A stretch of DNA of 64,000 bases, from the NCBI RefSeq assembly GCF_030656345.1, contig NZ_JAUSNR010000023.1, positions 62,001 to 126,000 on the forward strand. Reading direction: 5' to 3'. Positions 243 to 58,341 of this stretch are shown here, in pieces (position 1 is the stretch's first letter; each line of letters opens with the position of its first letter). Under the pieces are notes generated by a model. That model was given only the letters and a program-made list of their open reading frames with translations, searched no databases and was not told the DNA's origin. The stretch comes from Pseudotabrizicola sp. (lineage in GTDB: Bacteria > Pseudomonadota > Alphaproteobacteria > Rhodobacterales > Rhodobacteraceae). The position numbers and the translations under genes were made by a program.

Positions 243-287
243 GGGGGCTCTGCCCCCGGGCCCCCGGAGTATTTTTGTCAAGATGAA
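243..287 (+). repeat. GGAGTATTT repeat copy 1 with GC hairpin (terminator-like)
   Basis: A GGGGGC-TCT-GCCCCC hairpin (243-257) is followed by a C-rich spacer, then GGAGTATTTTTG and CAAGATGAA (266-286). The T-run after the hairpin looks like an intrinsic terminator for the upstream oxidoreductase gene. It abuts the stop codon of the convergent FMN reductase. Confidence 0.7.
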
Positions 288-288
288 G

Positions 289-825
289 TCAGCGGGCAGT
301 TTCGGCGCGCAGGAGCTGCATGAGTTCCGTCAGACTCTTTTGCGCGCGGTCGTCCTTGAGCCGGCCCTGATCATCGAAGGCTGCGCCGGAGTTCGCGATG
401 AACACTTCTGGCCCGGGCAGCAGGCGCGGGCGGAACGGCACAAGGCAATGGCGCAGCGAGAACTGCGACCGCTCGCCCCCCGCACGCCCTGCGGCGGCGG
501 ACAGGATCGCCACCGGCTTGTCCCGCCAGGGCGCGCCCTTGGTGCGGCTGACCCAGTCGAGCGCGTTTTTCAGCACGCCCGACAGGTTCTTGTTATACTC
601 TGGCGTGCTGATCACCACTGCATCGGCGGCGGTGATCTGGTCGGCAAGTGTCTGCACCTCGGGCGGCATTCCCGCTGCCTCCAGATCGCCATCGTAAAGC
701 GGCAGGCGCAGGTTGCCGTCGACAAAGGTGCAAGCGCCGAAGGCGCGCACCGAGTCAAGCATCAGCATGCGGTTGGTAGAGGCGGCGCGCAGCGAACCGC
801 AAAGGCCAAGCAGGGTCGGGGTCAT
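289..825 (-). CDS. NADPH-dependent FMN reductase family flavoprotein
   Basis: 178-residue flavodoxin-fold protein. The N-terminal LLGLCGSLRAAS loop is the FMN phosphate-binding motif, and the STPEYNKNLSGVLKNALDW segment (about residues 75-95) is the hallmark of the FMN_red (chromate/azo/quinone reductase) family. It should use NAD(P)H to reduce flavin or quinones in the cytoplasm; the physiological substrate is unknown. The start is an ATG whose ATGA overlaps the stop of lrgB, so it is the last gene of an lrgA-lrgB-reductase operon and probably translationally coupled. A role in redox protection alongside the Lrg membrane proteins is inference. Confidence 0.85.
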   Translation of the reverse strand: MTPTLLGLCGSLRAASTNRMLMLDSVRAFGACTFVDGNLRLPLYDGDLEAAGMPPEVQTLADQITAADAVVISTPEYNKNLSGVLKNALDWVSRTKGAPWRDKPVAILSAAAGRAGGERSQFSLRHCLVPFRPRLLPGPEVFIANSGAAFDDQGRLKDDRAQKSLTELMQLLRAETAR

Positions 826-1550
826 GGCAATCCTTGGGTAAAGAGGGAGAGGGCAAGGGGCGCGACCAGCGCCGTCGCAATGGCATTCAGCGCCATGCCA
901 AGCGCGGCAAAGGCCCCGGCGGTCGGATGCACCTGTAGCGCACGGGCGGTGCCGATGCCATGGCTGGTCAGCCCCACCGCAAAACCGCGCGCCCGCCAGT
1001 CGCGCAAGGCAAGCAGGTTTAACAGCGGCGTCGCCACCACCGCCCCGGTGATACCGGTCAGGATCACCAGCACCGCCGTCAGCGTCGGCGACCCGCCGAT
1101 GCGTTCGGCAATGCCGATGGCCACCGGGGCAGTCGCCGACTTGGGCGCAAGCGAGGCCAGCACCGTGGCATCCACCCCCAGCGCCGCCCCGATGGCCAGT
1201 GCCGACAGCGCGGCGGTCACAGACCCTGCAACCAGCGCCGCGAGCACCGGCCACAGCGCCCGGCGCAGTCGGGGCAGGCTGTCGTAGAGCGGCAGGGCCA
1301 GCGCCACCGTCGCCGGACCCAGCAGGAAATGGACAAACTGCGCGCCCTCAAAATACGTGGCATAGGGCGTGGCGGTCAGGTGCAGCAGCACCGCCAGCAG
1401 TGCCACGGCGATCAGCACCGGGTTGACCACAGGCGTCCGCCCCGCCAGCCGGAAACAGGCATCCCCCAGCGCATAAGCCGCCAGCGTCGCGGTCAGCCAC
1501 AACAACGGGCCTTGCGACAGATAGCTCCAGATATCGGCGAAATCAGTCAT
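822..1550 (-). CDS. lrgB: LrgB/CidB/YohK family membrane protein
   Basis: 242 residues, strongly hydrophobic with about 6-8 membrane segments. The PKSATAPVAIGIAERIGG stretch (about residues 135-152) is the conserved LrgB signature, and a second conserved GIGTARALQ motif lies near residue 200. LrgB partners LrgA in the inner membrane. The pair was first described as holin/antiholin-like, while homologues act as glycolate/glycerate (plant PLGG1) or pyruvate transporters, so export or import of a small organic acid is a fair alternative. It overlaps lrgA by 8 bases and the FMN reductase by 4, which implies one transcript. Confidence 0.92.
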   Translation of the reverse strand: MTDFADIWSYLSQGPLLWLTATLAAYALGDACFRLAGRTPVVNPVLIAVALLAVLLHLTATPYATYFEGAQFVHFLLGPATVALALPLYDSLPRLRRALWPVLAALVAGSVTAALSALAIGAALGVDATVLASLAPKSATAPVAIGIAERIGGSPTLTAVLVILTGITGAVVATPLLNLLALRDWRARGFAVGLTSHGIGTARALQVHPTAGAFAALGMALNAIATALVAPLALSLFTQGLP

Positions 1551-1896
1551 CGTGCGACCCTGTCAGCCGGGCGACTCCGGCAAAGGTCAGCGCCCCCACG
1601 GCAATGGCAAGGATGGTGGAGACCACCACCGCCAGTGCGATGGCAGCAGTCTGGTCGCCCAGCGTGGCGAAGTGCCCCACCACCCCCACCCCGGCAGGCA
1701 CGAACAGCAGCGACAGATGCGCGAGGATGCCCTGCGCCGTGGGCCGCACAAGGGCCGCAAAGCGCGGGGATGCCACCAGCGCCGCCAGCATCAGCACCAT
1801 CCCAAGCACCGGGCCGGGCAGCGGCAGAGGCAGGGCACGGGCGAGGGTTTCGCCGACCAGCTGAAAGGTCAGTATCGCGATCAGGGCGTGAAGCAT
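1543..1896 (-). CDS. lrgA: LrgA/CidA family holin-like membrane protein
   Basis: 117 residues with four predicted membrane helices. The LPGPVLGMVLML segment in helix 2 and the LLFVPAGVGVV segment in helix 3 are typical of the CidA/LrgA family. It is thought to form oligomers with LrgB in the cytoplasmic membrane, affecting murein hydrolase activity or transport of small acids. It is the first gene of a three-gene operon with lrgB and an FMN reductase. No regulator (LytR/LysR type) is adjacent. Length and topology are normal for the family. Confidence 0.9.
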   Translation of the reverse strand: MLHALIAILTFQLVGETLARALPLPLPGPVLGMVLMLAALVASPRFAALVRPTAQGILAHLSLLFVPAGVGVVGHFATLGDQTAAIALAVVVSTILAIAVGALTFAGVARLTGSHDD

Positions 1897-1949
1897 CGGC
1901 GCGGCCTCTGGTTGTTTCGGGCAAGCCTAAGGCCCCGCGCGCAAAAGGA

Positions 1950-1977
1950 AAGGGCGGCTGGTCTCACAGCCGCCCTT
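1950..1977 (-). terminator. Hairpin terminator downstream of the polytopic membrane protein gene
   Basis: A perfect 11-bp stem (AAGGGCGGCTG with CAGCCGCCCTT) and a 6-nt loop lie just after the stop at 1995. Read on the minus strand the stem is followed by a T-rich run (TTTCCTTTTG). On the plus strand only TTG follows, so the minus-strand gene is the likely client. Confidence 0.7.
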
Positions 1978-1994
1978 TTGTCGAAATACGCCGG

Positions 1995-3200
1995 TTACTC
2001 GGCCGGAACCGCCTGCGACTGCGGCAGGCCGAAATGGCGGCGGTTCAGCGCCAGCAGCAGGACCAGCATGGCGATCTGCACCGCCACCAGCACTGCAGTC
2101 AGCCCCCAGTAGACAGTACCGAACTTGGCAACCAGACCCGCACCCACCAGCGCCTTGTTGATCCAGAACTGCATCAGCACTGCCAGCCCGACCCCGGGGC
2201 AGACCAGACCATAAGCCCCCGCCGACGGCGTGGCAGAGCGCATGAACCGGCCCACATAGCCATGCTGCCGCATCATCGACAATCCAAGGCCGAGGAAGCC
2301 GATCTGCACCGCCAGCAACGCGGTCAGCAGCCAAAGGTCATCACCCGGTGCCGCATGCACGCCGAAATGCACATGCAGCCCGTGGTTTTGCCGCAGCATC
2401 AGGATGCCCAACACCGCCATCAGCGGCACGATGTTCATCAGCGTCGGGATCTGGTCCTCTACCACCCCATGCTGCAACAGCGCGACCACGCCCAGCACCA
2501 CTCCCACCGCCGCCCAGACCACGGCGATCACCAGCAGCACCGTGGACAACACCAGCGCAATCCCTGCGACAGTGGACGAGGCGGACAGCGCCGCCGGGGC
2601 CGACATGCCGACACCGATCATCCCCAGCGCAAAAGCGGGCTGCACCTGCAGGAACGACCCGGCGCGGGACATGTCAAACCGCCCCGCCACCGACAGCCGC
2701 GCCAGATGCGCGCCCATCATCCGCAGGGTCATCACCGCAAGGCCGCCAAAGGCCAGCAGCGCCAGCGGGAACAGATATTCCACCACGCTCCACAGCCCCG
2801 GCACAAAGGCCAGACCGGCGGAGAAGCTGACATTCACAGTCATGCCCAGCATCAGGGGCAGGCCGAACAGCCCGGCCCCGGCATTGGACGCTTGCACCGT
2901 GGCGAACGCAGGCGAGCGCTTGAACGCGCCGTAGCGGCGCAGGTTCCAGACCATCAGCCGCACATGTTGCACGGCGAAAAACCCAAGGCCCAGATAGGCC
3001 AGAATGATCATCGCCTGTTGCAGCGGGTTGCCCGCGGCAAAGGCGCGCGCCACATCTTCAAACACCGGCACCGGCTGGCCGGGATGCGGCACCCACATGT
3101 AAAGCCAGAGGAAGAACGTAACCGCAATCCCGCCTGCCCCCAGTGCAGACAGGAAATAGGGCGGCGACCATTGGTCGGCAGGACGGGTCAGGGATGGCAT
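1995..3200 (-). CDS. Polytopic membrane protein, TsoY-like (TDT/SLAC1-like topology)
   Basis: 401 residues with about ten hydrophobic segments spread evenly along the chain, no signal peptide and a short polar tail. Opening motifs (PPYFLSALGAGG, WVPHPGQPVPVFED) and an internal FVPGLWSVVEYLFP segment match, from memory, a Rhodobacteraceae family annotated TsoY; I am not certain of that name. Overall layout recalls the tellurite-resistance/dicarboxylate (SLAC1/TehA) fold. Substrate is unknown. Its promoter region carries an ATTC-N8-GAAT dyad, the operator pattern reported for the persulfide-responsive ArsR-type repressor SqrR, which would place the protein in sulfur or sulfide metabolism (inference). 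It is followed by a strong hairpin terminator, so it is probably monocistronic. Confidence 0.6.
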   Translation of the reverse strand: MPSLTRPADQWSPPYFLSALGAGGIAVTFFLWLYMWVPHPGQPVPVFEDVARAFAAGNPLQQAMIILAYLGLGFFAVQHVRLMVWNLRRYGAFKRSPAFATVQASNAGAGLFGLPLMLGMTVNVSFSAGLAFVPGLWSVVEYLFPLALLAFGGLAVMTLRMMGAHLARLSVAGRFDMSRAGSFLQVQPAFALGMIGVGMSAPAALSASSTVAGIALVLSTVLLVIAVVWAAVGVVLGVVALLQHGVVEDQIPTLMNIVPLMAVLGILMLRQNHGLHVHFGVHAAPGDDLWLLTALLAVQIGFLGLGLSMMRQHGYVGRFMRSATPSAGAYGLVCPGVGLAVLMQFWINKALVGAGLVAKFGTVYWGLTAVLVAVQIAMLVLLLALNRRHFGLPQSQAVPAE

Positions 3201-3216
3201 GATGGGCCTCTTACAA

Positions 3217-3232
3217 ATTCACAATCATGAAT
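3217..3232 (-). promoter_or_regulatory. SqrR/BigR-like operator dyad ATTC-N8-GAAT
   Basis: ATTCA-N6-TGAAT, a perfect 5-bp dyad, lies 17-32 bases upstream of the start codon of the TsoY-like gene. A further TGAATA direct repeat adjoins it (3228-3239). ATTC-N8-GAAT is the pattern described for SqrR of Rhodobacter capsulatus. The site would overlap the promoter or leader, as expected for a repressor. Confidence 0.5.
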
Positions 3233-3328
3233 ATGAATATGGAAGCCCCCTGCGTCAATGCAACAGGCGGGCGGCGGACAAGGTGTCGCGGGGCCGCCGT
3301 CCGGCCGTCCGGTTGGCTTTTTGCGATG

Positions 3329-3787
3329 TCAGACCGCGCGCTGGAATGTCAGCGTTGTCACCCGGTCATAGCCGGGATGGCTGCTGCGCCCCGCCACTGT
3401 GAACCCCATGGCGCGAAAGGCGGCGTGGTTCTCGACCAGCTCGATCCGGGTCTGCAGTTCCAGCACTCGCAGACCCATGGCGCGGGCGCGTGTGGCAGCG
3501 GTCTCGACCAGCGCCCGGGCCAGACCCTTGCCCTGCTGCGCCTCCGCCACCGCCAGCTTGCCAAGATACAGCGCCTGCGGCTTTGCCGTCAGGATCATGC
3601 ACGCCACCGGCGGCGTGCCGGTCACCCAGACCTCGCCGGTCCGGGCCTGCACCGCAATCGCCTCTGCGGTCAGGGTCAGCATTGATGAGGGCGGATCGAT
3701 CCGCCCCTCCATAAACGCGAATTCCTGCCGGATCAGCTGCAGGATGGCGGTCCAGTCATAGGGGTCGGTGGCGCGGATGGGGGTCAT
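3329..3787 (-). CDS. GNAT family N-acetyltransferase
   Basis: 152 residues. The central LYLGKLAVAEAQQGKGLARAL region (about residues 72-92) is the acetyl-CoA binding motif A of GCN5-related acetyltransferases (Q/RxxGxG/A). The following ELQTRIELVENHAAFRAMGF stretch is the conserved C-terminal part including the residue that aligns with the catalytic Tyr/Phe region. The acceptor substrate cannot be predicted. The chosen ATG follows a clean family N-terminus (MTPIRATDPYDW); in-frame upstream sequence lacks GNAT character. It is divergent from smc, with 182 bases between them. Confidence 0.85.
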   Translation of the reverse strand: MTPIRATDPYDWTAILQLIRQEFAFMEGRIDPPSSMLTLTAEAIAVQARTGEVWVTGTPPVACMILTAKPQALYLGKLAVAEAQQGKGLARALVETAATRARAMGLRVLELQTRIELVENHAAFRAMGFTVAGRSSHPGYDRVTTLTFQRAV

Positions 3788-3969
3788 CTGATCGGGTCTT
3801 TGGGAATGGCACTGCCGGTCCGGCCACAAGATGCCAAACCAATCCGCCCGGCAAGGGGCCAACATCTTGGGGATAACCGGCACCATACCGCCAGATACGG
3901 GGGTTGCCCTGTTGACTCTGCCCCCGCCAATGCCCGACCATTCCCATCTTGCGACTCAAAGAGGCACAG

Positions 3970-6900
3970 GTGCGTTTTTCCCGGATACGGCTCAACGGCT
4001 TCAAAAGCTTTGTCGACCCCACGGATCTGGTGATCCATGAGGGGTTGACCGGCGTGGTCGGGCCGAACGGCTGTGGCAAGTCGAACCTGCTGGAGGCGTT
4101 GCGCTGGGTCATGGGCGAAAACCGCCCCACCGCGATGCGCGGCGGCGGGATGGAAGATGTGATCTTTGCCGGAGCCGCCACGCGCGGCGCGCGGCACTTT
4201 GCCGAAGTCTCGATCGTGATCGACAATCAGGACCGGCTGGCACCATCGGGCTTCAACGATGCTGACACCATTGAAATCGTGCGCCGGATCACCCGCGATG
4301 CAGGCTCCGCCTATAAGGCCAATGCCAAGGATGTGCGCGCCCGCGATGTGCAGATGCTGTTTGCCGATGCCTCCACCGGGTCGCATTCCCCGGCCTTGGT
4401 GCGGCAGGGCCAGATCTCGGAACTGATCAACGCCAAACCCAAATCGCGCCGCCGCATACTGGAAGAGGCCGCTGGCATCTCCGGCCTTTATGCCCGCCGG
4501 CATGAGGCAGAGCTGAAACTGTCTGGCGCGGAACAGAATCTGCTGCGCGTTGATGATGTGCTGGAAGGGCTGGCGCAACAGGTCGCCACCCTGACCCGTC
4601 AGGCAAGGCAAGCCGCCCGCTACCGCGAGATTGGCGAAGAGCTGCGCCGGTCGGAAGGGATGCTGTTGTTCCGCCGCTGGCGCGAGGCCGATCTGGCCCG
4701 GGCCGAGGCCGAAGCGCAGCTGCGTGACCGTCTGATCGCCGCAGGAAAGGCCGACGCAGCCGCCCGCGCCAGCACCAAGGCCCGCGAGGCGCGCGAAGAC
4801 GCCCTGCCGCCCAAGCGCGAGGAAGAGGCGGTGGCGGCGGCCATCCTGCAACGCCTTGTCCTGCAACGCGATGCGCTTGGCGATCAGGAAGCCCGCGCCA
4901 TGCAGCTGATCGAAACCCTGCGCGGCCGCATCACCCAGCTTGACCGCGATATGGAGCGTGAGTCCGGCCTGAACCGCGACGCAGGCGAAACCATCAGCCG
5001 TCTGGACTGGGAAATCGAGCAACTGCTGCGCGCCAATGAAGGCCACGATGACCGGCTGGCCGAGGCCGCCGAGGCCGCGCGTGACGCGGGGGCAATCCTG
5101 TCCGATCGCGAAACCCTGCTGTCGCAGGCCACCGAAGACTCGGCCCGCCTCGCCGCCCGTCACCAGTCGGTGCAGCGCCTGCTGTCCGACACCCGCGCCA
5201 CGGTTGACCGGGCCGAGGCCGAAGCCGACCGCGCGCGGGCCATGGTGGACACCGCCGCCGAAGCCGTTGAGGCTGCCGCTGAAGCCTATGCCAGTGCCAC
5301 CGAAGCGCAGGAAGACGCCGCAGCGCTGGCCGAAGCCGCCGAAGAAGCGCTGGACCAGACCGAAGCCGCCCGCGCCGAGGCGCAGGGTCGTGAGGCCGAC
5401 GCCCGCGCCGCCCGTGGTGAGGCCGAAGGCGAGGCCAACGCCCTGCGTGCCGAAGTCGCGGCTTTGGCGCGCCTCGTGGACCGTGAATCGCAGGCGGGCC
5501 ACCAGTTGCTTGACCGCCTGACGGTGGAACCCGGCTTTGAAAAGGCGCTCGGTGCCGCCCTGTCCGATGACCTGCGTGCGCCGGAAGTGGGTGCCGATGC
5601 GCGCTCCGGCTGGGCTATGCTGCCCGGCTATGACGACACCGCGCCCTTGCCCGCAGGCGCGCAGCCGCTGGCCCGCCATGTCGGCGCGCCCGATGTGCTG
5701 GACCGCAGGCTCAGCCAGATCGGGCTGGTCGGCCGCGCGCAGGGGGCTGCCCTGCAAGCCGCCCTGCGCCCCGGCCAACGCCTTGTCAGCGTTGAGGGCG
5801 ATCTGTGGCGCTGGGACGGGTTCCGCGCCTCTGCCGAAGATGCCCCCTCTGCCGCCGCCGCCCGCTTGCAACAGCTCAACCGTCTGGTGCAGCTGAAACG
5901 CGATCTGGAAGAGGTAGCGGCCCGCGCCGAAGGGGCCAAGCGCGCGCATGAGGCGTTGCAGGCCCGCCTCGCCGATCTGGCCCGCGCCGACCAGATGGCC
6001 CGCGACGCCCGCCGCGCCGCCGATGCCCGCGTCACCGAAGCCAACCGCACCGCTGCCCGCGCCGAAGCCGAAGCCTCCATCACCGGGGGCAAACTGGACT
6101 CCGCCCACCTCGCCGTCGCGCGGTATGAGGATGAGGCGATGGCCGCCCGCAGCCGCCTGCGCGAGGCCGAAGGCAATGCGACCGACCTGCCCGACCTCGA
6201 TGCCGCGCGCGACCGGGTCGAAGCGGCCAAGGTCGCGGTTGAGGCCGCCCGTCTGGCCATGCTCACCCGCCGCTCTGCCCATGACGAGTTGCGTCGCGAA
6301 GGCGAAGCCCGCGTGCGGCGCCGTCAGGAAGCGACCAAGGAACTGTCCGGCTGGCGTCACCGTCTGGACACGGCGGAAAAGCGCAGCGCCGAACTTGCCG
6401 AACGCCGCGCCGAAACCCAGGAAGAGCTGGAAGAGGCCAGCGCCGCCCCCGAAGAACTCGCCGCCAAGCGCGAAGAACTGTCGGATGCCATCGACACGGC
6501 TGAGGCCCGCCGCCGCAAAGCCGCCGATGTATTGACCGAAGCCGAAACCGCGCTGCGAGAGGCGCAGCTGACCGAACGAGACGCCGAACGCCTGAACGGC
6601 GAGGCGCGCGAGGCGCGCGCCCGGGCCGAGGCGCGCAACGACGCCGCCCGCGAAACCGTGGCCTATGCCGCCGAGCGCATCGCTGAGGACGCGGACTGCA
6701 CCCCGGCAGACCTGCTCGCCTCGCTCAAGGTCGACCCTGACAAGATGCCGGACGCCGACAGCCTCGACACCGACGTGCAGCGCCTGAAGCGCCAGCGCGA
6801 AGCCTTGGGCGCGGTCAACCTGCGCGCCGAAGACGACATGGCCACGGTCGCAGGCGAACACGCCACGCTGCTGAAAGAAAAGACCGACCTTGAAGAGGCG

Positions 6901-7425: not shown

Positions 7426-7772
7426 TCACCGCGCTGCGGGAGGCGGGCTTTCTGGCGGTCGAGGCCGAAGGCGACAGATGCCACGCCCGGCTCTGGGCCA
7501 GCTCGGTCGATTTCACCGCCACGCCGGATGGCGATCACTGGCAGCTTGCCCTGCACTGGCCGGTCCGCGCCTCCGCCGCACAGCGCGCGGAGTGGTCCGC
7601 CACCCACCCGACCGCCCCGATGGACATCCACAACGGCGAAACCCGCCTGACGATGCGGGTGGCGAAAGATGACCCGCAAAGCCTGCCGCTCTGGGCTGCC
7701 CTGGCCGAAGAGGCCGTCGCGCAACTGATCCGCTGGCGTCGGGCCCAACGCCAACCGGGGGAAGGCTACTGA
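7422..7772 (+). CDS. Conserved hypothetical protein coupled to smc
   Basis: 116 residues, soluble, no signal peptide or membrane segment. It is rich in Trp (six) and Ala, with a central Asp/Asn turn (MDIHNGETRLTMRV) and an amphipathic C-terminal helix (PLWAALAEEAVAQLIRWRRAQ). I do not recognise a named domain. Its ATG overlaps the smc stop (ATGA), so it is very likely co-translated with SMC. A chromosome-related role is suggested only by that coupling. Codon usage is like its neighbours, so it is a real gene rather than a read-through artefact. Confidence 0.75.
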   Translation: MITALREAGFLAVEAEGDRCHARLWASSVDFTATPDGDHWQLALHWPVRASAAQRAEWSATHPTAPMDIHNGETRLTMRVAKDDPQSLPLWAALAEEAVAQLIRWRRAQRQPGEGY

Positions 7773-7820
7773 ACCGGGCCATCGGCGCGCTGGACCCGCC
7801 CGTGCCGCACAGGCCCTGCA

Positions 7821-7874
7821 TTGCAGCTTTCAAAAATACTCCGGGGGAGTCCGCAGGACGGGGGCAGCGCCCCC
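7821..7874 (-). repeat. GGAGTATTT repeat copy 2 with GC hairpin (terminator-like)
   Basis: Read on the minus strand, a GGGGGC-GCT-GCCCCC hairpin (7874-7860) is followed by a C-rich spacer, then GGAGTATTTTTG and AAAGCTGCAA (7842-7821). It lies between the convergent smc operon and the lytic transglycosylase gene and reads in the direction of the latter. Confidence 0.7.
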
Positions 7875-7941
7875 CAACGCCGAGGCAAAGGCCTCTTTGC
7901 CTTTGCCGAGACATCGTGTGCGGCGCAGCCGCTCCGTCAAA

Positions 7942-9093: not shown

Positions 9094-9103
9094 GGCGCGA
9101 AGC

Positions 9104-26696: not shown

Positions 26697-27182
26697 ATGA
26701 GTATTTGGGAAAGGTGCAATTGGCAGGGGCGCGGCCTGCCGGCAAGTGCGGCGGCAGTGGCCCTGTCGCTGGCGCTTGGCCTGCCCGCCACGGCGCAGGA
26801 TGTGGCAGACTGTGACTGGCGCGGTGCGGCGCAGGCCATTGCCGAACCGTGGGAGGACAACACCGCCACTTTCGCCAACGGCGCGGTCCGGCTGGCGGTG
26901 ATGGATGTGATGGAACCGGCCGCCGCGGCCTATCATCTGCTGATCCTGTCGCCGCCCCACGCCGAACTGGGCGAGCGTCAGTGCCGCGTGATGTCGGCGC
27001 AAGGCAGTTTCGGTTTTGCCGGTCTGTCGGTGCTGGGGGCGACGGCCACCTACGATCCCGCCACCGGGCTGACCGTGACCCTGCCGGCAAAGCGCTGGTC
27101 TGACGGCGATGTGTTCACCGATACCGCGTTGCATGTCACCATCAATCAGGCCACCGGGGCCATCACCGGGCGGCTGGATTAG
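26697..27182 (+). CDS. Secreted hypothetical protein; start region is a repeat copy
   Basis: 161 residues as read from this ATG. A Leu/Ala-rich signal-like segment ([15 protein letters not shown], about residues 21-35) precedes a beta-rich body with two Cys ([10 protein letters not shown] and RQCRVM) that could form a disulfide in the periplasm. No named domain recognised. Oddly, the first seven codons and the start codon itself fall in a copy of the dispersed GGAGTATTT repeat, giving an atypical N-terminus ([11 protein letters not shown]) for a signal peptide. An alternative GTG at 26670 is in frame. The 5-base gap to acpS implies co-transcription with pdxJ and acpS. Confidence 0.7.
26699..26719 (+). 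repeat. GGAGTATTT repeat copy 3, overlapping a start codon
   Basis: GAGTATTTGGG then AAAGGTGCAA, without a strong upstream GC hairpin. The AAGATG just before GAGTATTT gives the ATG of the secreted protein gene, so part of the repeat is translated. Confidence 0.6.
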
Positions 27183-32519: not shown

Positions 32520-32540
32520 GAGTATTTTCATCAAGATGAA
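32520..32540 (+). repeat. GGAGTATTT repeat copy 4 (left arm of an inverted pair)
   Basis: GAGTATTTTCA then TCAAGATGAA, downstream of the MFS gene. Together with copy 5 it forms a near-perfect inverted repeat (19 of 21 positions) with a 23-nt loop between convergent genes. Confidence 0.75.
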
Positions 32541-32563: not shown

Positions 32564-32584
32564 TTCATCTTGACAAAAATACTC
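32564..32584 (-). repeat. GGAGTATTT repeat copy 5 (right arm of an inverted pair)
   Basis: On the minus strand it reads GAGTATTTTTG then TCAAGATGAA. It is the mirror of copy 4; the pair can fold into a long hairpin that would act as a bidirectional terminator for the MFS and mcd genes. Confidence 0.75.
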
Positions 32585-35348: not shown

Positions 35349-35367
35349 GGCGGAAGCGCTCCGCGCG

Positions 35368-35390
35368 GGAGTATTTAGGAAAGGTGCAAA
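35368..35390 (+). repeat. GGAGTATTT repeat copy 6
   Basis: GGAGTATTTAGG then AAAGGTGCAAA, preceded by GCGCTCCGCGC, a short GC hairpin. It lies 20 bases after the TSUP gene stop. Confidence 0.75.
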
Positions 35391-47480: not shown

Positions 47481-47502
47481 GGAGTATTTATAAAAGGTGC
47501 AA
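47481..47502 (+). repeat. GGAGTATTT repeat copy 7 (left arm of inverted pair)
   Basis: GGAGTATTTATA then AAAGGTGCAA, preceded by CGCTCCGCG. It forms an inverted pair with copy 8, with a 23-nt loop. Flanking genes here both read on the minus strand, so this pair is not at a convergent junction. Confidence 0.75.
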
Positions 47503-47525: not shown

Positions 47526-47547
47526 TTGCAGCTTTCAAAAATACTCC
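47526..47547 (-). repeat. GGAGTATTT repeat copy 8 (right arm of inverted pair)
   Basis: On the minus strand GGAGTATTTTTG then AAAGCTGCAA, preceded by GCTCCGCG. It lies 128 bases beyond the SDR gene stop and could terminate it. Confidence 0.75.
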
Positions 47548-48499: not shown

Positions 48500-48591
48500 G
48501 CTCTGCCCGTTTGTTTTTTCCCTGCTTAGGGCGAAACAACCGGGCCGCAAAGCGGTTTTGCGTGCAGGCAGGGCGCGGGCAACGTAGCTGA

Positions 48592-49243: not shown

Positions 49244-51547
<2,304 letters not shown>

Positions 51548-51554
51548 CCACCCC

Positions 51555-51625
51555 CTCATCGCTTCCTTCGGGCGCTTTTCGGTCCCGCATGAGGCCAGCG
51601 AAGAGCGCCCGAAGGAAGCGATGAG
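51555..51625. terminator. 25-bp inverted repeat between parC and bhcR
   Basis: Arms 51555-51579 and 51601-51625 match at 24 of 25 positions, with a 21-nt loop. It begins 8 bases after the parC stop, lies between convergent genes, and probably ends transcription in both directions. The left arm carries CTTTTC on the plus strand. Confidence 0.7.
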
Positions 51626-51656
51626 CGCGCGGCTCAGGGTGGGGAAAAGCCGCCCG

Positions 51657-52472
51657 TCAGGGCTGCACGCCCCCGGTCGCCTCTGTCACCTGATCCGCCG
51701 CCGCCCGCACCAGCCCGCCGATCCGTTCGGCATCTTCCAGCGCTATACGGAATGCCGGGCCGGACACCGACAGCCCCGCCACCGGCTCGCCATGGCTGTT
51801 GAAGACCGGGGCCGCCACGCAGCGCATACCGGGCGCGCGCTCCTGATCGTCAATCGCATATCCGCGCGCGCGGGTGGCCGCCAGATCGCGCATCAGGTCG
51901 GCCTCGGTGCCCAGCGTCAGGGCGGTAAACCGCTCCAGCCCCTTGCGCTCGATCACCCGTTTCACCCTGATTTCGCCGTACCAGGCCAGCAGCGCCTTGC
52001 CGATGCCCGACACATGCATCGGGGCCTTGGTGCCGGGCGGGAAAAACGCGCGGATCGCCTCATGCGTTTCGACCTGCGACAGGAACAGAACCTCATCCCC
52101 GGCCTCGATCCCCAGATTGGCGGTCTCACCACTGTCGCGCATCAGCATGTCCATCGGGTGCCGGGCGCGTTCCACCACTTTGGTGCGCCGCAGGAATGTG
52201 CTGCCCACGCGGAACGCGCCGGGGCCGACATGCCACAGTTGCCCGCCGTCTTCGGCCTCGACCATGTCATGGCCCTGCAGGGTGACCAGCGCGCGGAACA
52301 CCGTCGCCACCGCCTCGCCACTTTCCGCCGCCAGTTCTGACAGTGACAATCCGGGCTTTGCCGCCACCAGTTCCAGCAGCATCAACCCCCGGTCCAGCGC
52401 CTGCACCGTGTTCTGGTCGGTCTTGTCAAGAAACGCCTTGGGGCGGCCGCGCGGGCGGGGGGTATTGGCCAT
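51657..52472 (-). CDS. bhcR: IclR-family regulator BhcR
   Basis: 271 residues. N-terminal winged helix (about 20-85: VQALDRGLMLLELVAAKPGLSLSELAAESG, then ATVFRALVTL) and a C-terminal IclR effector domain (YGEIRVKRVIERKGLERFT, CVAAPVFNSHGEPVAGLSVSGP). It is divergent from bhcA, and the regulator in this position in Paracoccus is BhcR, which senses glyoxylate and controls the cluster. Assignment to BhcR rests on the adjacent complete bhcABCD set. Confidence 0.92.
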   Translation of the reverse strand: MANTPRPRGRPKAFLDKTDQNTVQALDRGLMLLELVAAKPGLSLSELAAESGEAVATVFRALVTLQGHDMVEAEDGGQLWHVGPGAFRVGSTFLRRTKVVERARHPMDMLMRDSGETANLGIEAGDEVLFLSQVETHEAIRAFFPPGTKAPMHVSGIGKALLAWYGEIRVKRVIERKGLERFTALTLGTEADLMRDLAATRARGYAIDDQERAPGMRCVAAPVFNSHGEPVAGLSVSGPAFRIALEDAERIGGLVRAAADQVTEATGGVQP

Positions 52473-52623
52473 GTCTCACCTTTGGGGTTTTGATGAAAAA
52501 CGCTTACCGTCTGATATAATTGTAAAATAGCATGGCCTCTCATAAATGAAAAACCTTTTCGAAAAAATTGTCCCCCTGTGCCACTTCGCCTAAGATGGGC
52601 CAACAGCGCTTGGAGGAGCCGTC
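52473..52623. promoter_or_regulatory. bhcR-bhcA divergent promoter region
   Basis: 151 bases, markedly A/T-rich compared with surroundings. It includes TGATATAATTGTAAAATAGC (52512-52531, -10-like) and a perfect palindrome TTTTCGAAAA (52556-52565), a candidate BhcR operator, plus the bhcA ribosome site TTGGAGGAG. Confidence 0.6.
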
Positions 52624-53814
52624 ATGCAGTCCCAGAACCCCGTCTTCATCCCCGGCCCCACGAATATTCCCGAGACCATCCGCAAGGCCTGCGACCTGCC
52701 CACCCTTGACCACCGCTCCCCTGCCTTCGCTCGGCTGTTCCGCCCGGCAGTTGAAGGCGTCCGCCGGGTGTTGAAGATGGCCGAGGGCGAGGTGATCCTG
52801 CTTCCCTCCACCGGCACCGGCGGCTGGGAGGCCGCGATCACCAACACCCTGTCCCCCGGCGACACCGTGCTGGCCGCCCGCTTCGGCATGTTCAGCCACC
52901 GCTGGATCGACCTGTGCCAACGCCACGGCCTGACCGTGCAGATCATCGAGGTGCCATGGGGGCAGGGTGCCCCATTGGACAAGATTGAGGCCGCGCTAAG
53001 GGCCGACACCACCGGCACCATCAAAGCCGTGCTCGCCACCCATAACGAGACCGCCACCGGCGTGCGGTCCGACATCGCAGGCCTGCGCCGCGCGATGGAC
53101 GCGGCGGGCCATGCGGCGATGCTGATGGTTGACGGCGTGTCCTCGATCGGCTCGATGCCGTTCGAGATGGGGGCATGGGGCGTCGACATCGCGGTGGCAG
53201 GCAGCCAGAAGGGCTTCATGTTGCCCGCTGGTCTGGCGATTGTCGGGGTCAGCCCGAAAGCACTGCAGGCGATGGACACGGCCACCCTGCCGCGCACGTT
53301 CTTTGATTTCAAGGACATGCTGAAAAGCTATGCCGCAGGCGGCTTTCCCTATACCCCGCCCGTCGGGCTGATCGCCGGTCTGGCCCGCGCGATTGAGATG
53401 CTGGAGGATGAGGGGCTGGACGCCGTCTACGCCCGCCATCACCGCCTTGCGACCGGCGTGCGCCGTGCCGTTGCCGCATGGGGGATGACGCCCTGCGCTG
53501 CGTCGCCGGACCTGTACTCGGACACCGTCACCGCCGTTGTGGTGCCCGAAGGCTGCAACGGTACCGATCTGGTGAAGCTGGCTGCCGAGAAATACGACGT
53601 GGCCTTTGGCGTGGGCTTGGGTGAGGTGGCCGGAAAAGTGTTCCGCATCGGCCACTTGGGCATGCTGACCGATGTCATGGTGCTGTCCGGCCTTGCCACG
53701 GCTGAAATGTGCATGGCCGATCTGGGCTGGCCGATCACGCTGGGGTCCGGCGTGGCGGCGGCGCAGGAGTATTATCGCGGGTCATCTGTCGCAATGGCAA
53801 TGGCCGCGGAGTGA
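52624..53814 (+). CDS. bhcA: Aspartate-glyoxylate aminotransferase BhcA
   Basis: 396 residues, class V PLP aminotransferase related to serine-glyoxylate transaminases. The N-terminus FIPGPTNIPETIRKAC, the STGTGGWEAAITNTLSPGD cofactor segment and Schiff-base Lys196 in VAGSQKGFMLPAGLA are clear. In the beta-hydroxyaspartate cycle it aminates glyoxylate to glycine using aspartate, giving oxaloacetate. It is the first gene of bhcA-B-C-D; a repeat element and a hairpin separate it from bhcB by about 100 bases. Codon choice is C-ending here, whereas the next genes prefer G. Confidence 0.93.
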   Translation: MQSQNPVFIPGPTNIPETIRKACDLPTLDHRSPAFARLFRPAVEGVRRVLKMAEGEVILLPSTGTGGWEAAITNTLSPGDTVLAARFGMFSHRWIDLCQRHGLTVQIIEVPWGQGAPLDKIEAALRADTTGTIKAVLATHNETATGVRSDIAGLRRAMDAAGHAAMLMVDGVSSIGSMPFEMGAWGVDIAVAGSQKGFMLPAGLAIVGVSPKALQAMDTATLPRTFFDFKDMLKSYAAGGFPYTPPVGLIAGLARAIEMLEDEGLDAVYARHHRLATGVRRAVAAWGMTPCAASPDLYSDTVTAVVVPEGCNGTDLVKLAAEKYDVAFGVGLGEVAGKVFRIGHLGMLTDVMVLSGLATAEMCMADLGWPITLGSGVAAAQEYYRGSSVAMAMAAE

Positions 53815-53838
53815 GGCGGATGCCCCGGGGCTCTGCCC

Positions 53839-53907
53839 GTCGCCGGCTGGTTCTCGAACCAGTGGCGCACCAACCGGCGACCCCGGGATATTTAAGAACA
53901 GATGAAA
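53839..53907 (+). repeat. GGAGTATTT repeat copy 9 with hairpin, inside the bhc operon
   Basis: A stem GTCGCCGG / CCGGCGAC (53839-53846, 53874-53881) encloses a CTGGTT-CTCG-AACCAG hairpin, followed by GGATATTTAAG and AACAGATGAAA (53886-53907). The motif ends 9 bases before the bhcB start. It may cause partial termination or RNA processing between bhcA and bhcB. Confidence 0.6.
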
Positions 53908-53916
53908 GGCGGGACG

Positions 53917-54888
53917 ATGAAGGATCTGGAGCCGATGTATATTCCGACGTTTGATGACGTGATCGCGGCGCATGACCGTATCCGCCCGCATATCCACCGC
54001 ACGCCGGTGCTGACGTCGAGCTATTTCAATGAGTTGGTGGGCACCGAGCTGTTTTTCAAATGCGAGAATTTCCAGAAGGCCGGGGCGTTCAAGGTGCGCG
54101 GGGCCTGTAATGCGGTGTTTGGCTTGACCGAAGATCAGGCGCGGCTGGGGGTTTGCACCCATTCCAGCGGCAACCACGCGCTTTCGCTGTCATACGCAGC
54201 GGGGCGGCGCGGGATACCGTGCAACGTGGTGATGCCGCGCACGGCACCGCAGGCCAAGAAGGATGCGGTGCGGGGCTATGGCGGGGTGATCACGGAATGT
54301 GAGCCATCCACCAGCAGTCGCGAGGCGGTGTTCGCGCAGGTGCAGGCGCAGACCGGAGGCGAGTTTGTACACCCCTACAATGACCCGAGGGTGATTGCCG
54401 GGCAAGCCACCTGTTCGCGCGAACTGCTTGAACAGGTTGAGGAATTGGATTGTGTGATTGCGCCGATTGGCGGCGGCGGGATGATTTCCGGCACCTGCCT
54501 GACCATGAGCGCGGTGGCCCCCGGGGTGGATGTTTACGCCGCCGAGCCGCAGAATGCCGATGACGCTTACCGCAGCTTCAAGGCGGGCCGGATCATTGCC
54601 GATGACGCGCCTGAAACGGTGGCTGACGGGTTGAAGGTGCCGCTGAAGGATCTGACGTGGCATTTTGTGTCGCACCATGTGACCGATATCTTCACCGCCA
54701 CGGAAGAGGAGATCATCGAGGCGATGAAGTTGACCTGGCAGCGGATGAAGATTGTGATGGAGCCAAGCTGCGCTGTGCCGCTTGCCACCATATTGAAAAA
54801 CAAGGATGTTTTCCGGGGGCGGCGCGTGGGCGTCATCATCACCGGGGGGAACGTCGATCTGGACACTTTGCCTTGGATGAAAGGGTAA
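53917..54888 (+). CDS. bhcB: beta-Hydroxyaspartate dehydratase BhcB
   Basis: 323 residues from this ATG; ATGs at 53902 and 53935 are in frame, and the latter (MYIPTFDDV), preceded by GGAG, matches the known Paracoccus N-terminus as I recall it. Fold type II PLP enzyme of the serine/threonine dehydratase family: Lys59 in GAFKVRGACNAV, the SSGNHALSLSYAA loop and phosphate cup IGGGGMISG. It dehydrates erythro-beta-hydroxyaspartate to iminosuccinate, the third cycle step. Codon usage (TTG, GGG, GCG) differs from bhcA. Confidence 0.94.
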   Translation: MKDLEPMYIPTFDDVIAAHDRIRPHIHRTPVLTSSYFNELVGTELFFKCENFQKAGAFKVRGACNAVFGLTEDQARLGVCTHSSGNHALSLSYAAGRRGIPCNVVMPRTAPQAKKDAVRGYGGVITECEPSTSSREAVFAQVQAQTGGEFVHPYNDPRVIAGQATCSRELLEQVEELDCVIAPIGGGGMISGTCLTMSAVAPGVDVYAAEPQNADDAYRSFKAGRIIADDAPETVADGLKVPLKDLTWHFVSHHVTDIFTATEEEIIEAMKLTWQRMKIVMEPSCAVPLATILKNKDVFRGRRVGVIITGGNVDLDTLPWMKG

Positions 54889-54892
54889 CACC

Positions 54893-56056
54893 ATGAACAC
54901 GCACGCAGATTTCGAAGGGTTTGAAGTGGGCTATGACATTCCGGCCCTGCCGGGGATGGATGAGGCCGATATCCAGACGCCTTGCCTTGTGCTGGATCTG
55001 GACGCTTTGGAGCGCAATATCAAGAAGATGGGCGACTATGCCCGCGCCCATGGCATGCGCCACCGGGTGCATGGCAAGATGCACAAATCGGTTGATGTGG
55101 CCTTGTTGCAGGAGCGGCTTGGCGGGTCGGTCGGGGTGTGCTGCCAGAAGGTATCGGAGGCCGAGGTGTTTGCCCGGGGCGGCATCAAGGATGTGCTGGT
55201 CAGCAATCAGGTGCGCGATCCGGCCAAGATCGACCGTCTGGCGCGGATGCCGAAATTGGGTGCAAGAACAATTGTTTGCGTGGATATGCTGGACAATGTG
55301 GCCGACCTGTCGGCGGCGGCGGTGCGGCATGGGACGACGATTGAGTGCCTGGTAGAGATCGACTGCGGGGCCGGGCGTTGCGGGGTGAAGACCACGCCGG
55401 AGGTGGTGGCGATTGCGCAGGCGATTGATGCCGCACCGGGGCTGAAATTTGCGGGCCTTCAGGCCTATCAGGGTGCGATGCAGCACATGGACAGCTACGC
55501 CGACCGCAAGGCCAAGATTGATCTGGCGGTGGCGCAGGTCAAGGACGCTGTGGAGGGGCTGAAGGCTGTGGGCCTTGAGTGTGACATCGTGGGCGGTGGT
55601 GGCACCGGCAGCTATTATTTTGAAAGCAATTCAGGCGTTTACAATGAGTTGCAGTGCGGCAGCTATGCGTTCATGGATGCCGATTATGGCCGGATTCTGG
55701 ACAAGGACGGCCAGCGGATTGATCAGGGCGAATGGGAGAATGCGCTGTTCATCCTGACCTCTGTGATGTCCCATGCGAAGGCCGACAAGGCCATTGTGGA
55801 TGCCGGATTGAAGGCGCAATCGGTCGATTCCGGGCTGCCGGTGATCTTTGGGCGCACGGATGTGACCTATGTCAAATGCAGTGACGAACATGGCGTGGTG
55901 GATGATCCGGCGGGGGTGCTCAAGGTCAATGACAAGCTGCGGCTGGTGCCCGGGCACTGCGACCCGACCTGCAATGTGCACGACTGGTACGTGGGGGTGC
56001 GGGGTGGCCGCGTCGAGGCGGTCTGGCCGGTGTCTGCCCGGGGCAAGGCGTATTGA
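54893..56056 (+). CDS. bhcC: beta-Hydroxyaspartate aldolase BhcC
   Basis: 387 residues, fold type III PLP enzyme of the D-threonine aldolase group. The N-terminal alanine-racemase-like barrel has the PLP Lys in RHRVHGKMHKSVDV (about residue 62) and IDCGAGRCGV; the C-terminal region has the divalent-metal ligands in VPGHCDPTCNVHDWYVGV. It condenses glycine with glyoxylate to (2R,3S)-beta-hydroxyaspartate, the cycle's C-C bond-forming step. It starts 4 bases after bhcB. A phased repeat separates it from bhcD. Confidence 0.94.
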   Translation: MNTHADFEGFEVGYDIPALPGMDEADIQTPCLVLDLDALERNIKKMGDYARAHGMRHRVHGKMHKSVDVALLQERLGGSVGVCCQKVSEAEVFARGGIKDVLVSNQVRDPAKIDRLARMPKLGARTIVCVDMLDNVADLSAAAVRHGTTIECLVEIDCGAGRCGVKTTPEVVAIAQAIDAAPGLKFAGLQAYQGAMQHMDSYADRKAKIDLAVAQVKDAVEGLKAVGLECDIVGGGGTGSYYFESNSGVYNELQCGSYAFMDADYGRILDKDGQRIDQGEWENALFILTSVMSHAKADKAIVDAGLKAQSVDSGLPVIFGRTDVTYVKCSDEHGVVDDPAGVLKVNDKLRLVPGHCDPTCNVHDWYVGVRGGRVEAVWPVSARGKAY

Positions 56057-56070
56057 GATGAAAATTCAAC

Positions 56071-56121
56071 GTATGGTCTGGGTCTGGCGCGCGTATGGTG
56101 CGCGTATGGCAAACGTCATGA
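56071..56121. repeat. Phased GTATGG repeats, second locus (between bhcC and bhcD)
   Basis: GTATGG begins at 56071, 56092 and 56104, with GTCATG at 56115 and a weak unit at 56081: spacings of about 10-12 bases. It shares ACGT-like CGTATGGCAAACGT with the locus at 35459. No hairpin of note. Confidence 0.5.
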
Positions 56122-56134
56122 CGTGGGTGCAGGC

Positions 56135-57094
56135 ATGAGGATTGTGCCGGAAGCGCTGATTGCGGGCCTTGTCTCGCCCGAAGATGCCTTTGCGGCGGTG
56201 GAGGCGGTGTTTGCCGCCATGTCGCGCGGCGAGGCCTATAACTTCGACGTGGTGCGTGAGGCACTGGGTGAGGGGCGGCAGTATGGCTTCAAGTCGGGGC
56301 TGGACCGGGCTGGCGGGCAGTTGGGGGTGAAGGCCGGGGGGTACTTTCCCGGCAATGCGGCGCGCGGGATCATCAACCACCAGTCGACCGTGTTTCTATT
56401 CGACCCCGAGACCGGGCGGCCGACGGCCATGGTCGGCGGCGGGTTGCTGACCGCGCTGCGCACGGCGGCGGCGGCGGCGATTTCCATCGACCGGCTGGCG
56501 CGGCGGGATGCGAAGGTTCTGGGCATGGTGGGGGCGGGGCATCAGGCCGGGTTCCAACTGCGCGCAGCGGCGCGGGTGCGGGGGTTCGAGCGGGTGATCG
56601 GCTGGAACCTGCACCCCGAGATGCTGGACCGGCTGGGCGCGATTGCCGCAGAGCTTGGGGTGCCGTTTGAGGCGGTGCCCTTGGCGCGGATGGTGGAGGC
56701 GGATGTGATCGTGACGATCACCTCGTCGCCCGCTGCCAGCCTGTTGAGTGCCCATGTGTCCCCCGGCACTCATCTGGCCTGCATGGGCACCGATACGAAG
56801 GGCAAGCAGGAGGTGGAGCCGGCGCTGCTGGGCCGGGCCTCGGTGTTCACCGATGAGATTGCGCAAGCGGTGAGCATTGGTGAGGCGCAGCATGCGGTGG
56901 CGGCGGGTCTGCTGGACGCGACCGCGATCACGCCTTTGGGCGATGTGATCACCGGCGCGCATCCCGGGCGGCGGACGGAGGACGAGATCACGCTGTTTGA
57001 CGGTACCGGCGTGGGCTTGCAGGATCTGGCGGTGGCGGCGATGGCGGTGCGCCGGGCGGAGGAGCGCGGGCAGGGGGCGGTGGTGGAGGTCTGA
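56135..57094 (+). CDS. bhcD: Iminosuccinate reductase BhcD
   Basis: 319 residues, ornithine cyclodeaminase/mu-crystallin family. NAD(P) Rossmann loop VLGMVGAGHQAGFQLRAA (about 128-145), substrate region GGQLGVKAGGYFPGN and SIGEAQHAV. It reduces iminosuccinate to aspartate, regenerating the amino donor used by BhcA and closing the cycle. The start giving MRIVPEALIAG fits the family; a GTG lies 12 bases upstream. Codons are strongly G-ending. Confidence 0.92.
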   Translation: MRIVPEALIAGLVSPEDAFAAVEAVFAAMSRGEAYNFDVVREALGEGRQYGFKSGLDRAGGQLGVKAGGYFPGNAARGIINHQSTVFLFDPETGRPTAMVGGGLLTALRTAAAAAISIDRLARRDAKVLGMVGAGHQAGFQLRAAARVRGFERVIGWNLHPEMLDRLGAIAAELGVPFEAVPLARMVEADVIVTITSSPAASLLSAHVSPGTHLACMGTDTKGKQEVEPALLGRASVFTDEIAQAVSIGEAQHAVAAGLLDATAITPLGDVITGAHPGRRTEDEITLFDGTGVGLQDLAVAAMAVRRAEERGQGAVVEV

Positions 57095-57191
57095 GGTCCG
57101 CTTAGGGCCGGAAACCTTGTCCGGGTGACAAAGCCGCGCTTGCGCACACGGCAGTGGCGTGCTGATCCTGCCGCGCGGAACGAGGTGCAGC

Positions 57192-58166
57192 ATGCGGGTT
57201 TTCATCAACGGATTTGGCCGGATCGGGCGTTCTGTCCTGCGGGCCTGGGCGGCTGCCCCATCGCTGTGGCCGGGGCTGGAGGTGGTGGGCATCAACGACA
57301 TCGCCGCACCCGAGATGTGCGCGCATCTGTTCGAATATGACAGCGTGTTCGGGCCATGGCGCGGCACGGTGGCGCTGGAACACGGCGTGCTGGTGGTGAA
57401 CGGGCGGGCGATCCCGCTGCACCGGGCGGCGGATCTGTCGGGGCTGGATCTGCGGGGCGTCGATGTGGTGATGGAATGCACCGGGCGGGCCGACTGCCAT
57501 GAGGTGGCGGCACGCGGGGTGCGGGCGGGGGCGCGGCGGGTGCTGATCTCGGGTCCGTCGCAGGCGGCAGAGGTGACGGTGGTGCTGGGGGCGAATGACG
57601 AGGTGCTGACGGATCAGCAGATCGTGTCGAACGCGTCGTGCACCACCAATGCGCTGGCCCCGCTGGCGCGGTTGATCCACCGCGAATGGGGGGTGGTGAC
57701 CGGGTCGATGACCACGATCCATTGCTACACCGGCAGCCAGCCCACGGTCGATGCCCCGGCGGCGGATTATGCGCGGTCGCGCGCCGCCGCCCTGTCGATG
57801 GTGCCGACCACCACCAGCGCCTCGCGCCTGCTGGACCATGTGCTGCCCCAGATTGCCGGGCGGATCGAGGGGTCGGCGGTGCGGGTGCCGGTGGCCAGCG
57901 TGTCTTGCGTCGATCTGGCGGTGATGACGCAGCGGCCGGTGACGGTTGATGCCGTCAACGCGGCGTTTCATGCGGCGGGCGGGGTGATCGGGGTGACCGA
58001 CCGGGCGCTGGTGTCGACCGATCTGCGGGCCCGGCCTGAGAGCATCGTGATGGCCACGCCGGAAACCCGGGTGACCCAAGGCGGGATGCTGCGGGTGTTT
58101 GGCTGGTATGACAATGAATGGGGATTTTCCAACCGGATGCTGGATGTGGCCTTGCGGATGGGGTGA
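57192..58166 (+). CDS. Glyceraldehyde-3-phosphate dehydrogenase paralogue
   Basis: 324 residues. NAD loop FINGFGRIGRSVLRAW at the N-terminus and nucleophile Cys in NASCTTNALAP; the base His is in MTTIHCYTGSQPTVDAP. The region following differs from canonical enzymes: RSRAAALSMVPTTTSASRLL replaces the RGAAQNIIPSSTGAAKAV-type phosphate-binding loops. It may be a gluconeogenic GAPDH, an erythrose-4-phosphate dehydrogenase or use another substrate. It follows bhcD by 97 bases on the same strand and has its own intrinsic terminator, so co-transcription with bhc is possible. Confidence 0.85.
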   Translation: MRVFINGFGRIGRSVLRAWAAAPSLWPGLEVVGINDIAAPEMCAHLFEYDSVFGPWRGTVALEHGVLVVNGRAIPLHRAADLSGLDLRGVDVVMECTGRADCHEVAARGVRAGARRVLISGPSQAAEVTVVLGANDEVLTDQQIVSNASCTTNALAPLARLIHREWGVVTGSMTTIHCYTGSQPTVDAPAADYARSRAAALSMVPTTTSASRLLDHVLPQIAGRIEGSAVRVPVASVSCVDLAVMTQRPVTVDAVNAAFHAAGGVIGVTDRALVSTDLRARPESIVMATPETRVTQGGMLRVFGWYDNEWGFSNRMLDVALRMG

Positions 58167-58191
58167 TCCGGACCACAGGTGATCTGATTGA

Positions 58192-58213
58192 GCACCTTCG
58201 GTGCAAGCTTTTT
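58192..58213 (+). terminator. Intrinsic terminator of the GAPDH paralogue
   Basis: GCACC-TTC-GGTGC hairpin followed by AAGCTTTTT, 25 bases after the stop codon. Confidence 0.75.
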
Positions 58214-58251
58214 AGTCGCTTTCGGGCGCTTCGGCCCTCGGCTCCGCTGAT

Positions 58252-58296
58252 GGGGGCGCTGCCCCCAAACCCTCGGAGTATTTGAAAAAGCTGCAA
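58252..58296 (+). repeat. GGAGTATTT repeat copy 10 with GC hairpin
   Basis: GGGGGC-GCT-GCCCCC hairpin (58252-58266) then GGAGTATTTG and AAAAAGCTGCAA (58275-58296). It is the left part of an inverted pair with copy 11. Confidence 0.75.
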
Positions 58297-58320
58297 AGCC
58301 AAACTGCGGACATTGAGGCC

Positions 58321-58341
58321 TGCACCTTTCTGAAATACTCC
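58321..58341 (-). repeat. GGAGTATTT repeat copy 11 (right arm of inverted pair)
   Basis: On the minus strand GGAGTATTTCAG then AAAGGTGCA, preceded by GCGCACCGCGCGG. It lies 20 bases beyond the stop of the minus-strand reductase gene and, with copy 10, would give a bidirectional terminator at a convergent junction. Confidence 0.75.

Follow-up and report, generated by a model that had tools for sequence, protein, structure and literature searches.

An intrinsic terminator consists of a hairpin and then a short T-rich stretch after the stop codon. The repetitive extragenic palindromic (REP) sequences of the GTAG and CGTC super-families are described, in the available part of PMC3733652, as high-copy extragenic hairpin repeats near the 3′ ends of open reading frames (ORFs), located in convergent and tandem gaps and frequently arranged as inverted dimers, and the CGTC REPs are described there as having no dedicated transposase. 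The subject of this report is a short element at gene 3′ ends in a 64,000-nucleotide stretch of a Pseudotabrizicola sp. genome (contig NZ_JAUSNR010000023.1, positions 62,001 to 126,000), hereafter the window. The element shares with REPs its many extragenic copies near ORF 3′ ends, its rarity in divergent gaps and its inverted dimers (same part of PMC3733652). It resembles the REP doublets (REPINs) that go with REP-associated tyrosine transposases (RAYTs) in its inverted doublets with short spacers and its long vertical persistence (PMC2817692 and PMC8049555, each as far as available), and the DNA uptake sequences (DUS) of Neisseriaceae in that the dialects of related species differ at few positions (PMC3630211, as far as available).

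Unlike in the GTAG and CGTC REPs, conservation here lies in a 21-bp non-palindromic tail, with a variable hairpin next to it, and the spelling of the tail varies between species at retained sites. In contrast to REPIN/RAYT systems, the other 15 genomes of the genus contain no RAYT and most single copies are without a partner remnant. Compared with the Neisseriaceae DUS, copies are far fewer, lie at 3′ ends beside a hairpin, and their presence is not tied to ComEC (16 genomes). The hairpin and T-rich stretch are common to the element and the intrinsic terminator, and convergent gaps with the element less often contain another terminator; however, it has a conserved class-specific second half, antisense copies, and copies directly before start codons. 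The element is bipartite, with a constant half G(A/G)(G/A)TATTT, a fixed gap and a class-specific half, which is AAGATGAA in class A, AAG[GC]TGCAA in class B and ACAGATGA in class C.

Retained sites and changed spelling

The most telling fact about the element is that its downstream half is re-spelled between species while the sites stay in place. The window (G+C 64.6%) was placed in contig C30 of the 4.70-Mb source genome (G000), and all eleven copies listed in an earlier note, made from the letters of the window, are present at their starts. The copies and two of their hairpins are as follows.

241 to 259, forward strand: GC hairpin CCGGGGGC-TCT-GCCCCCGG, upstream of copy 266, recognized by eye
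266 to 287, forward strand: single class A element; the stop codon of the convergent reverse-strand gene 289-825 follows directly
7821 to 7842, reverse strand: class B element, single, found by sequence match
26699 to 26719, forward strand: class B element without a hairpin; it overlaps the start codon predicted for the following gene (aagATGAGTATTT)
32520 to 32540, forward strand: class A element, left arm of a tail-to-tail pair, by pair scoring
32564 to 32584, reverse strand: class A element, right arm of the pair, gap 23 nt, by pair scoring
35356 to 35366, forward strand: hairpin GCGC-TCC-GCGC, upstream of copy 35368, of a type whose stems pair above shuffled partners
35368 to 35389, forward strand: single class B element in the gap separating pckA from a TauE-like gene
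47481 to 47502, forward strand: class B element, left arm of a pair, by pair scoring
47526 to 47547, reverse strand: class B element, right arm of the pair, gap 25 nt as scored, by pair scoring
53886 to 53906, forward strand: class C element, in the gap after bhcA, ~10 nt short of the start codon of the following predicted gene
58275 to 58296, forward strand: class B element, left arm of a pair, by pair scoring
58320 to 58341, reverse strand: class B element, right arm of the pair, gap 25 nt as scored, by pair scoring

Orthologous places were compared in 16 genomes of the genus, with loci anchored on pckA. In G150 an element stands at the orthologous place for 8 of 8 window loci, and the seven class B copies of the window all read AAGCAGCAA at their G150 counterparts. 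Retention is lower in G149, G153 and G161, where several of the eight loci are empty. The element at the TauE-gene locus (copy 35368) is kept as AAGGTGCAA in the source genome and G153 and as AAGCAGCAA in G150, G149, G161 and G154; G151 has a near-intact copy, G152 and G159 have decayed ones, and G046 has none. For copy 7842, the AAGCAGCAA spelling follows the orthologous gene in G150 and G161 and is also seen at the corresponding position in G149. The stop codon of the gene orthologous to that at copy 266 is followed by a class A element in G161, one of the AAGCAGCAA type in G150 and one of class C in G153, and copy 53886 has counterparts in several relatives at the same place after bhcA. The arrangement of copy 26699 is the same in G150, G149, G153 and G161; the locus holds a decayed, broken copy with the AAGGTGCAA spelling in G152 and a remnant close to AAGGTGCAA in G046. 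At this locus the ATG inside AAGATGAGTATTT can be the start codon of the next gene, and four relatives are alike.

Among complete class B-type halves with an intact core, the ratio of [GC]TGCAA to AGCAA types is 45:1 in the source genome and 5:0 in G153; it is 0:9 in G150, 0:10 in G149 (480 kb), 0:4 in both G161 and G151, 0:2 in G154 and 0:1 in G152. The broken-core copies of G149 (3 of 3) carry the old spelling with 2-3 mismatches (Fisher 0.0035); all three follow GC-rich sequence, and two occupy the partner position relative to an intact copy. The 47481/47547 pair is represented in G149 by one intact arm with the new spelling and one decayed arm with the old. Elsewhere, one broken core in G152 has the other spelling and one in G161 the current spelling. 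Three more matches, one each in the source genome and G151 (three mismatches each) and one in G153 (two mismatches), are without the GC-rich and partner features and were taken as chance; the reversed control has one such match in the source genome.

Abundance, anatomy and occurrence of the element

The motif is far more frequent than shuffled sequence allows. In the window, GGAGTATTT occurs 7 times against 0.07 expected, and none of 100 shuffles reached 7. Genome-wide, 103-170 exact copies were counted depending on the pattern: 115 with GGAGTATTTN{3,6}AAGNTGNA, 170 with GAGTATTTN{4,5}AAGNTGNA and 103 with GAGTATTTN{3,5}AAGNWGMAA, and each pattern when reversed gave 0. Further counts come from a sample of the source genome of 1.264 Mb (27%), composed of 60 stretches of 20 kb and the window; 20 of the 60 stretches were picked mainly around known motif matches, and the invariant letters of the element halves are partly imposed by the search patterns. 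In this sample GGAGTATTT is the top over-represented intergenic 9-mer, and its 66 copies exceed a first-order Markov expectation 192-fold. The sample holds 116 copies, comprising 53 of class A, 49 of class B and 14 of class C, and the reversed control gave 0. When 111 occurrences of GAGTATTT were scored, a class A or B half followed in 102 and neither in 9, some of which are near variants. The Rfam scan yielded no family above the gathering threshold in the window, with one sub-threshold match adjoining copy 58275. The literature listings, which do not cover subscription papers, contained no account of this element. One class A form is present in 39 IMG/VR viral stretches.

The spacer of 3-6 nt given in the earlier note exists, but its length is fixed by class and not random. 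With gaps of 2-6 nt allowed, the distance from GAGTATTT to AAG is 5 nt in 53 of 53 class A copies and 4 nt in 47 of 49 of class B. Its two sequence classes were likewise recovered, along with a third, class C, of the form GGATATTT-NN-GAACAGATGA, to which copy 53886 belongs. Its GC hairpin precedes most window copies, but copies 26699, 32520 and 32584 have AAGAT or AATTT instead (by eye). By suffix class, hairpins of several sequences (GGGGG/CCCCC type, stem-TCC-stem type and others) precede most copies of the sample, and 20 of the 116 have no GC hairpin, an AT-ending sequence such as AAGAT preceding instead. The AAGAT replacement is seen at window 26697-26719, L080 5427 and L083 10806. The palindromic hairpin unit is nevertheless one more trait shared with REPs: of 106 pattern matches to stem-TCC-stem hairpins, 62 have fully paired stem triplets, whereas shuffled partners give 20.6 and at most 31 in 500 shuffles; the matches pool the source genome with relatives and one site can match more than once. 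The TCC-type hairpin is thus under pairing constraint. A hairpin seated directly on the U-run was rejected as a general rule, for folding shows merely loose pairing beside the core. Arrays of small GC-rich mini-hairpins lie between stop codon and element at window 7843-7941 and 58167-58274 and recur in relatives.

Tail-to-tail pairs, 25 in number, account for 50 of the 116 copies, with 7-31 nt between halves (19-27 in 21 of 25). The two arms are of the same class in 24 of 25 pairs, where the expected fraction is 0.40. One wide class C pair (134 nt) and two head-to-head pairs were also found. Spacer letters common to both arms are slightly above chance (39 of 75 vs 30.1, p = 0.04). Taking the doublet as the unit and singles as its remnants, as in REPINs, was tried and rejected: a clear partner remnant is present in 2 of 62 singles, and 7 score beyond the 95th percentile of shuffled sequence (3.1 expected).

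The earlier note had asked about other Rhodobacteraceae, and the element is found in many relatives. The own-type pattern matched in 41 of 149 genomes of the order, and a wider pattern gave at least 10 matches in 46 of the 149, with the reversed control never above 4. Genome-specific spellings among the matches listed are CCAAGATGAA in G020 and G023, GCAAGATGAA in G118, GAAAGATGAA in G143, CCAAGAAGAA with GAACAGAAGAA in G106, and AAAGAGAAGAA in G078. A class-wide draw of 289 genomes was searched with the A/B pattern alone, which does not cover class C; the 285 genomes outside the family had at most 2 matches each (11 with any), and the draw included only 3 other family members, with 0 matches.

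Within the genus, copies were counted with GAGTATTTN{2,5}AAGNNGMAA, a pattern that misses most of class A and all of class C. Eight of the 16 genomes are high in copies: the source genome (105), G150 (144), G153 (119), G161 (102), G151 (85), G154 (83), G149 (69) and G156 (49). The low-copy genomes are G152 (13), G157 (6), G046 (2) and G158 (1), with 0 in G155, G159, G160 and G162; four of these eight are 82-87% complete, and G046, G152, G155 and G160 are 99-100% complete. The bare constant half GAGTATTT occurs 5-11 times in 80-kb syntenic stretches of G150, G149, G153, G161 and G151 and 1-2 times in those of G046, G152, G155 and G160; therefore the low counts are not solely a matter of spelling. 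Class C-like copies persist in the latter four genomes.

Placement at gene ends and candidates for a reader

Genes in the sample were called in this analysis (1180 genes, with start choice left to the gene caller), and gaps of at least 40 bp served as denominators; 100 of the 116 sites were counted, the other 16 overlapping a gene or having no neighbour. Convergent gaps contain copies in 31 of 120 cases, tandem gaps in 43 of 388 and divergent gaps in 1 of 146 (Fisher 7e-8), and 12 classified sites overlap called genes. As to orientation relative to stop codons, a check that the earlier note had proposed, both orientations are found at the 3′ ends of genes. The single copies of tandem gaps comprise 27 sense and 12 antisense (p = 0.024). 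Of the antisense singles, 10 have the element end 1-27 nt after the stop codon, and 17 of the 27 sense singles end at most 19 nt from the next predicted start or overlap it.

Terminators were sought by a crude scan for a hairpin and T-run in gaps of 60-500 bp. In convergent gaps they were found in 8 of 30 with the element and 19 of 58 without; in tandem gaps the figures are 12 of 41 and 52 of 285. With the element masked, other canonical terminators remain in 3 of 30 convergent gaps with the element (vs 19 of 58, p = 0.02) and in 5 of 41 tandem gaps (vs 52 of 285, p = 0.51), so that tandem gaps show no difference. The drop from 8 to 3 of 30 on masking indicates that the element itself scores as a terminator in some copies. 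In convergent gaps the element may replace a terminator; masking also removes room in short gaps, and the deficit is possibly in part an artefact. The TauE/pckA gap has a separate GC-rich inverted repeat 3′ of the element, which persists in G046, where the element is missing. The 3′ ends of transfer-messenger RNA (tmRNA) genes show no element within the ~160 nt displayed, part of these loci being unoriented, and are uninformative on a terminator role. At tmRNA locus L204, ~1851-1860, the source genome's tmRNA match includes at its end TGCACCTTTT, a sequence complementary to the class B half; it does not covary with class B spelling, because G150, with the other spelling, keeps TGCACCTT.

Candidates for a protein that might read the element were RAYT, ComEC and the gene transfer agent (GTA) family GTA_TIM. 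RAYT was rejected as a driver: Y1_Tnp, which 18 of the 149 order genomes contain, does not track the copies (G023 has 130 copies and no RAYT). Given its absence from the other genus genomes, the enzyme, if the family is mobile, would be another one. The two RAYT matches of the source genome lie in sequence resembling Pseudomonas by eye (L091, G000:C27 14729-18064, and L092, G000:C12 123799-125705). L091 holds a RAYT-type gene with TAGGAGCGG-like palindromes. Elsewhere on contigs C27 and C12 the Rhodobacteraceae motif is present too; the contamination of the assembly is rated at 7.8%, and both contigs may be chimeric. ComEC and GTA_TIM were rejected as correlates, each being present in 15 of 16 genus genomes, including the zero-copy G155, G159 and G160, with no pattern. 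The GTA TIM-barrel gene was not found in G161, despite its 102 copies. G149 has seven GTA_TIM matches, six with near-equal scores, which suggests several related prophage or GTA-like clusters. Genes in intervals of 60-3500 nt between neighbouring copies were considered as carriers of the reader and set aside, as by eye they look like housekeeping genes.

Weighing of the readings

We tentatively prefer, at somewhat less than even confidence, to read the element as a REP-like family at gene 3′ ends that is recognized by a putative trans-acting, sequence-specific factor other than a RAYT, over reading it as an RNA-level 3′-end element. That related species have the same sites but a different half-spelling in most copies hints at a molecule reading the element. 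Such a reader would recognize the constant half together with the class half, would bind DNA or the single-stranded hairpin, and could be a nuclease that replicates or converts copies. Were its specificity to change, intact copies would follow; were it lost, copies would decay; and 3′ ends would be the locations where copies do least harm. Change in place with differing spacers suggests selection or drive by the reader, not whole-element copying. Some copying is suggested by class B, in which the spacer and the class base are coupled: CAGA goes with G in 11 of 12 and GGGA with C in 8 of 11 (p = 0.001). It is possible, and held more loosely, that specificity changes of the putative non-RAYT reader sweep intact copies in place at hundreds of Rhodobacteraceae gene ends and leave decayed copies as fossils of the previous dialect. 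We found no counterpart of a genome-wide dialect system at gene ends in the literature searched. The REP-like origin suggested in the earlier note agrees with the 3′-end placement, the near absence from divergent gaps and the paired inverted copies, but the RAYT of GTAG-type REPs is missing.

Several results weigh against this preference. The search for the reader was limited to RAYT, ComEC and GTA_TIM, none of which fits, and RAYT occurs in 0 of the 15 other genus genomes. No insertion with target duplication was seen, and the only locus with a clear-cut presence/absence difference (TauE/pckA, absent in G046) looks like a deletion. Orthologous sites differ in their spacers between species, which speaks against a master copy as their source. 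The evidence from broken cores is small, with three cases in G149 and one in G152, and the two one-mismatch broken cores of the source genome have one of each spelling. Over the whole of G149, 64 of the 69 copies listed have the new spelling and 5 are intact copies with the old; further old-spelling copies are present among the matches listed for G150. The sense bias of tandem singles belongs here because a purely DNA-level element does not predict an orientation bias. So does the terminator deficit of masked convergent gaps, which favours a termination role and therefore strengthens the RNA-level rival.

In that rival, less probable in our view though a real contender, the hairpin and GUAUUU would mark the mRNA 3′ end for termination or processing, and a co-evolving factor (an RNA-binding protein, an RNase or a termination factor) would bind the second half. 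The masked convergent deficit, the copies that score as terminators themselves, the sense bias, the pairing constraint on the hairpin and the placement at 3′ ends all speak for it. However, the 12 antisense tandem singles and several tandem pairs would put the reverse complement into the transcript, tandem gaps show no terminator depletion, and half of the genus genomes have few or no copies. The sense singles at the next start are awkward for a full terminator, not for processing. Plain intrinsic terminators with an incidental downstream half would account for a hairpin followed by TATTT, for the 3′-end placement and for the convergent depletion, yet this reading is improbable. As the earlier note rightly argued, a terminator needs no conserved downstream half; here that half keeps a fixed spacing, is class-matched in pairs and changes in concert between species, and 20 of 116 copies were classed as having no GC hairpin.

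A DNA uptake-type motif, analogous to DUS or the uptake signal sequence (USS) and possibly used with GTA or competence, would share genome-specific dialects with the Neisseriaceae DUS (PMC3630211, in its available part) and would be compatible with inverted pairs. We consider it unlikely as well, with copies in the low hundreds and not thousands, few sites overlapping genes, ComEC and the GTA gene present in zero-copy genomes, and the GTA gene not found in G161. Least probable is a RAYT-driven REPIN family: inverted doublets and REP-like placement fit it, but Y1_Tnp does not follow the copies in the order or occur in the other genus genomes, and the hits of the source genome appear Pseudomonas-like. 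GTAG and CGTC are not enriched in the 40 nt upstream on either strand, with GTAG in 10 of 116 copies (17.4 in shuffles) and CGTC in 38 of 116 (43.9). Taking the failed RAYT test into account as well, we class the element outside both super-families, as a new variant.

A real dialect switch would imply a factor that reads gene ends by the hundreds and whose specificity can shift, the sites then shifting with it. Such a switch would point either to a non-RAYT maintenance of REP-like repeats, a question that also concerns transposase-less REPs, or to a new system for recognizing 3′ ends in a large family of bacteria. The sister species that spell the element otherwise, and those that have hardly any copies or none, offer natural variation in which to look for the factor.

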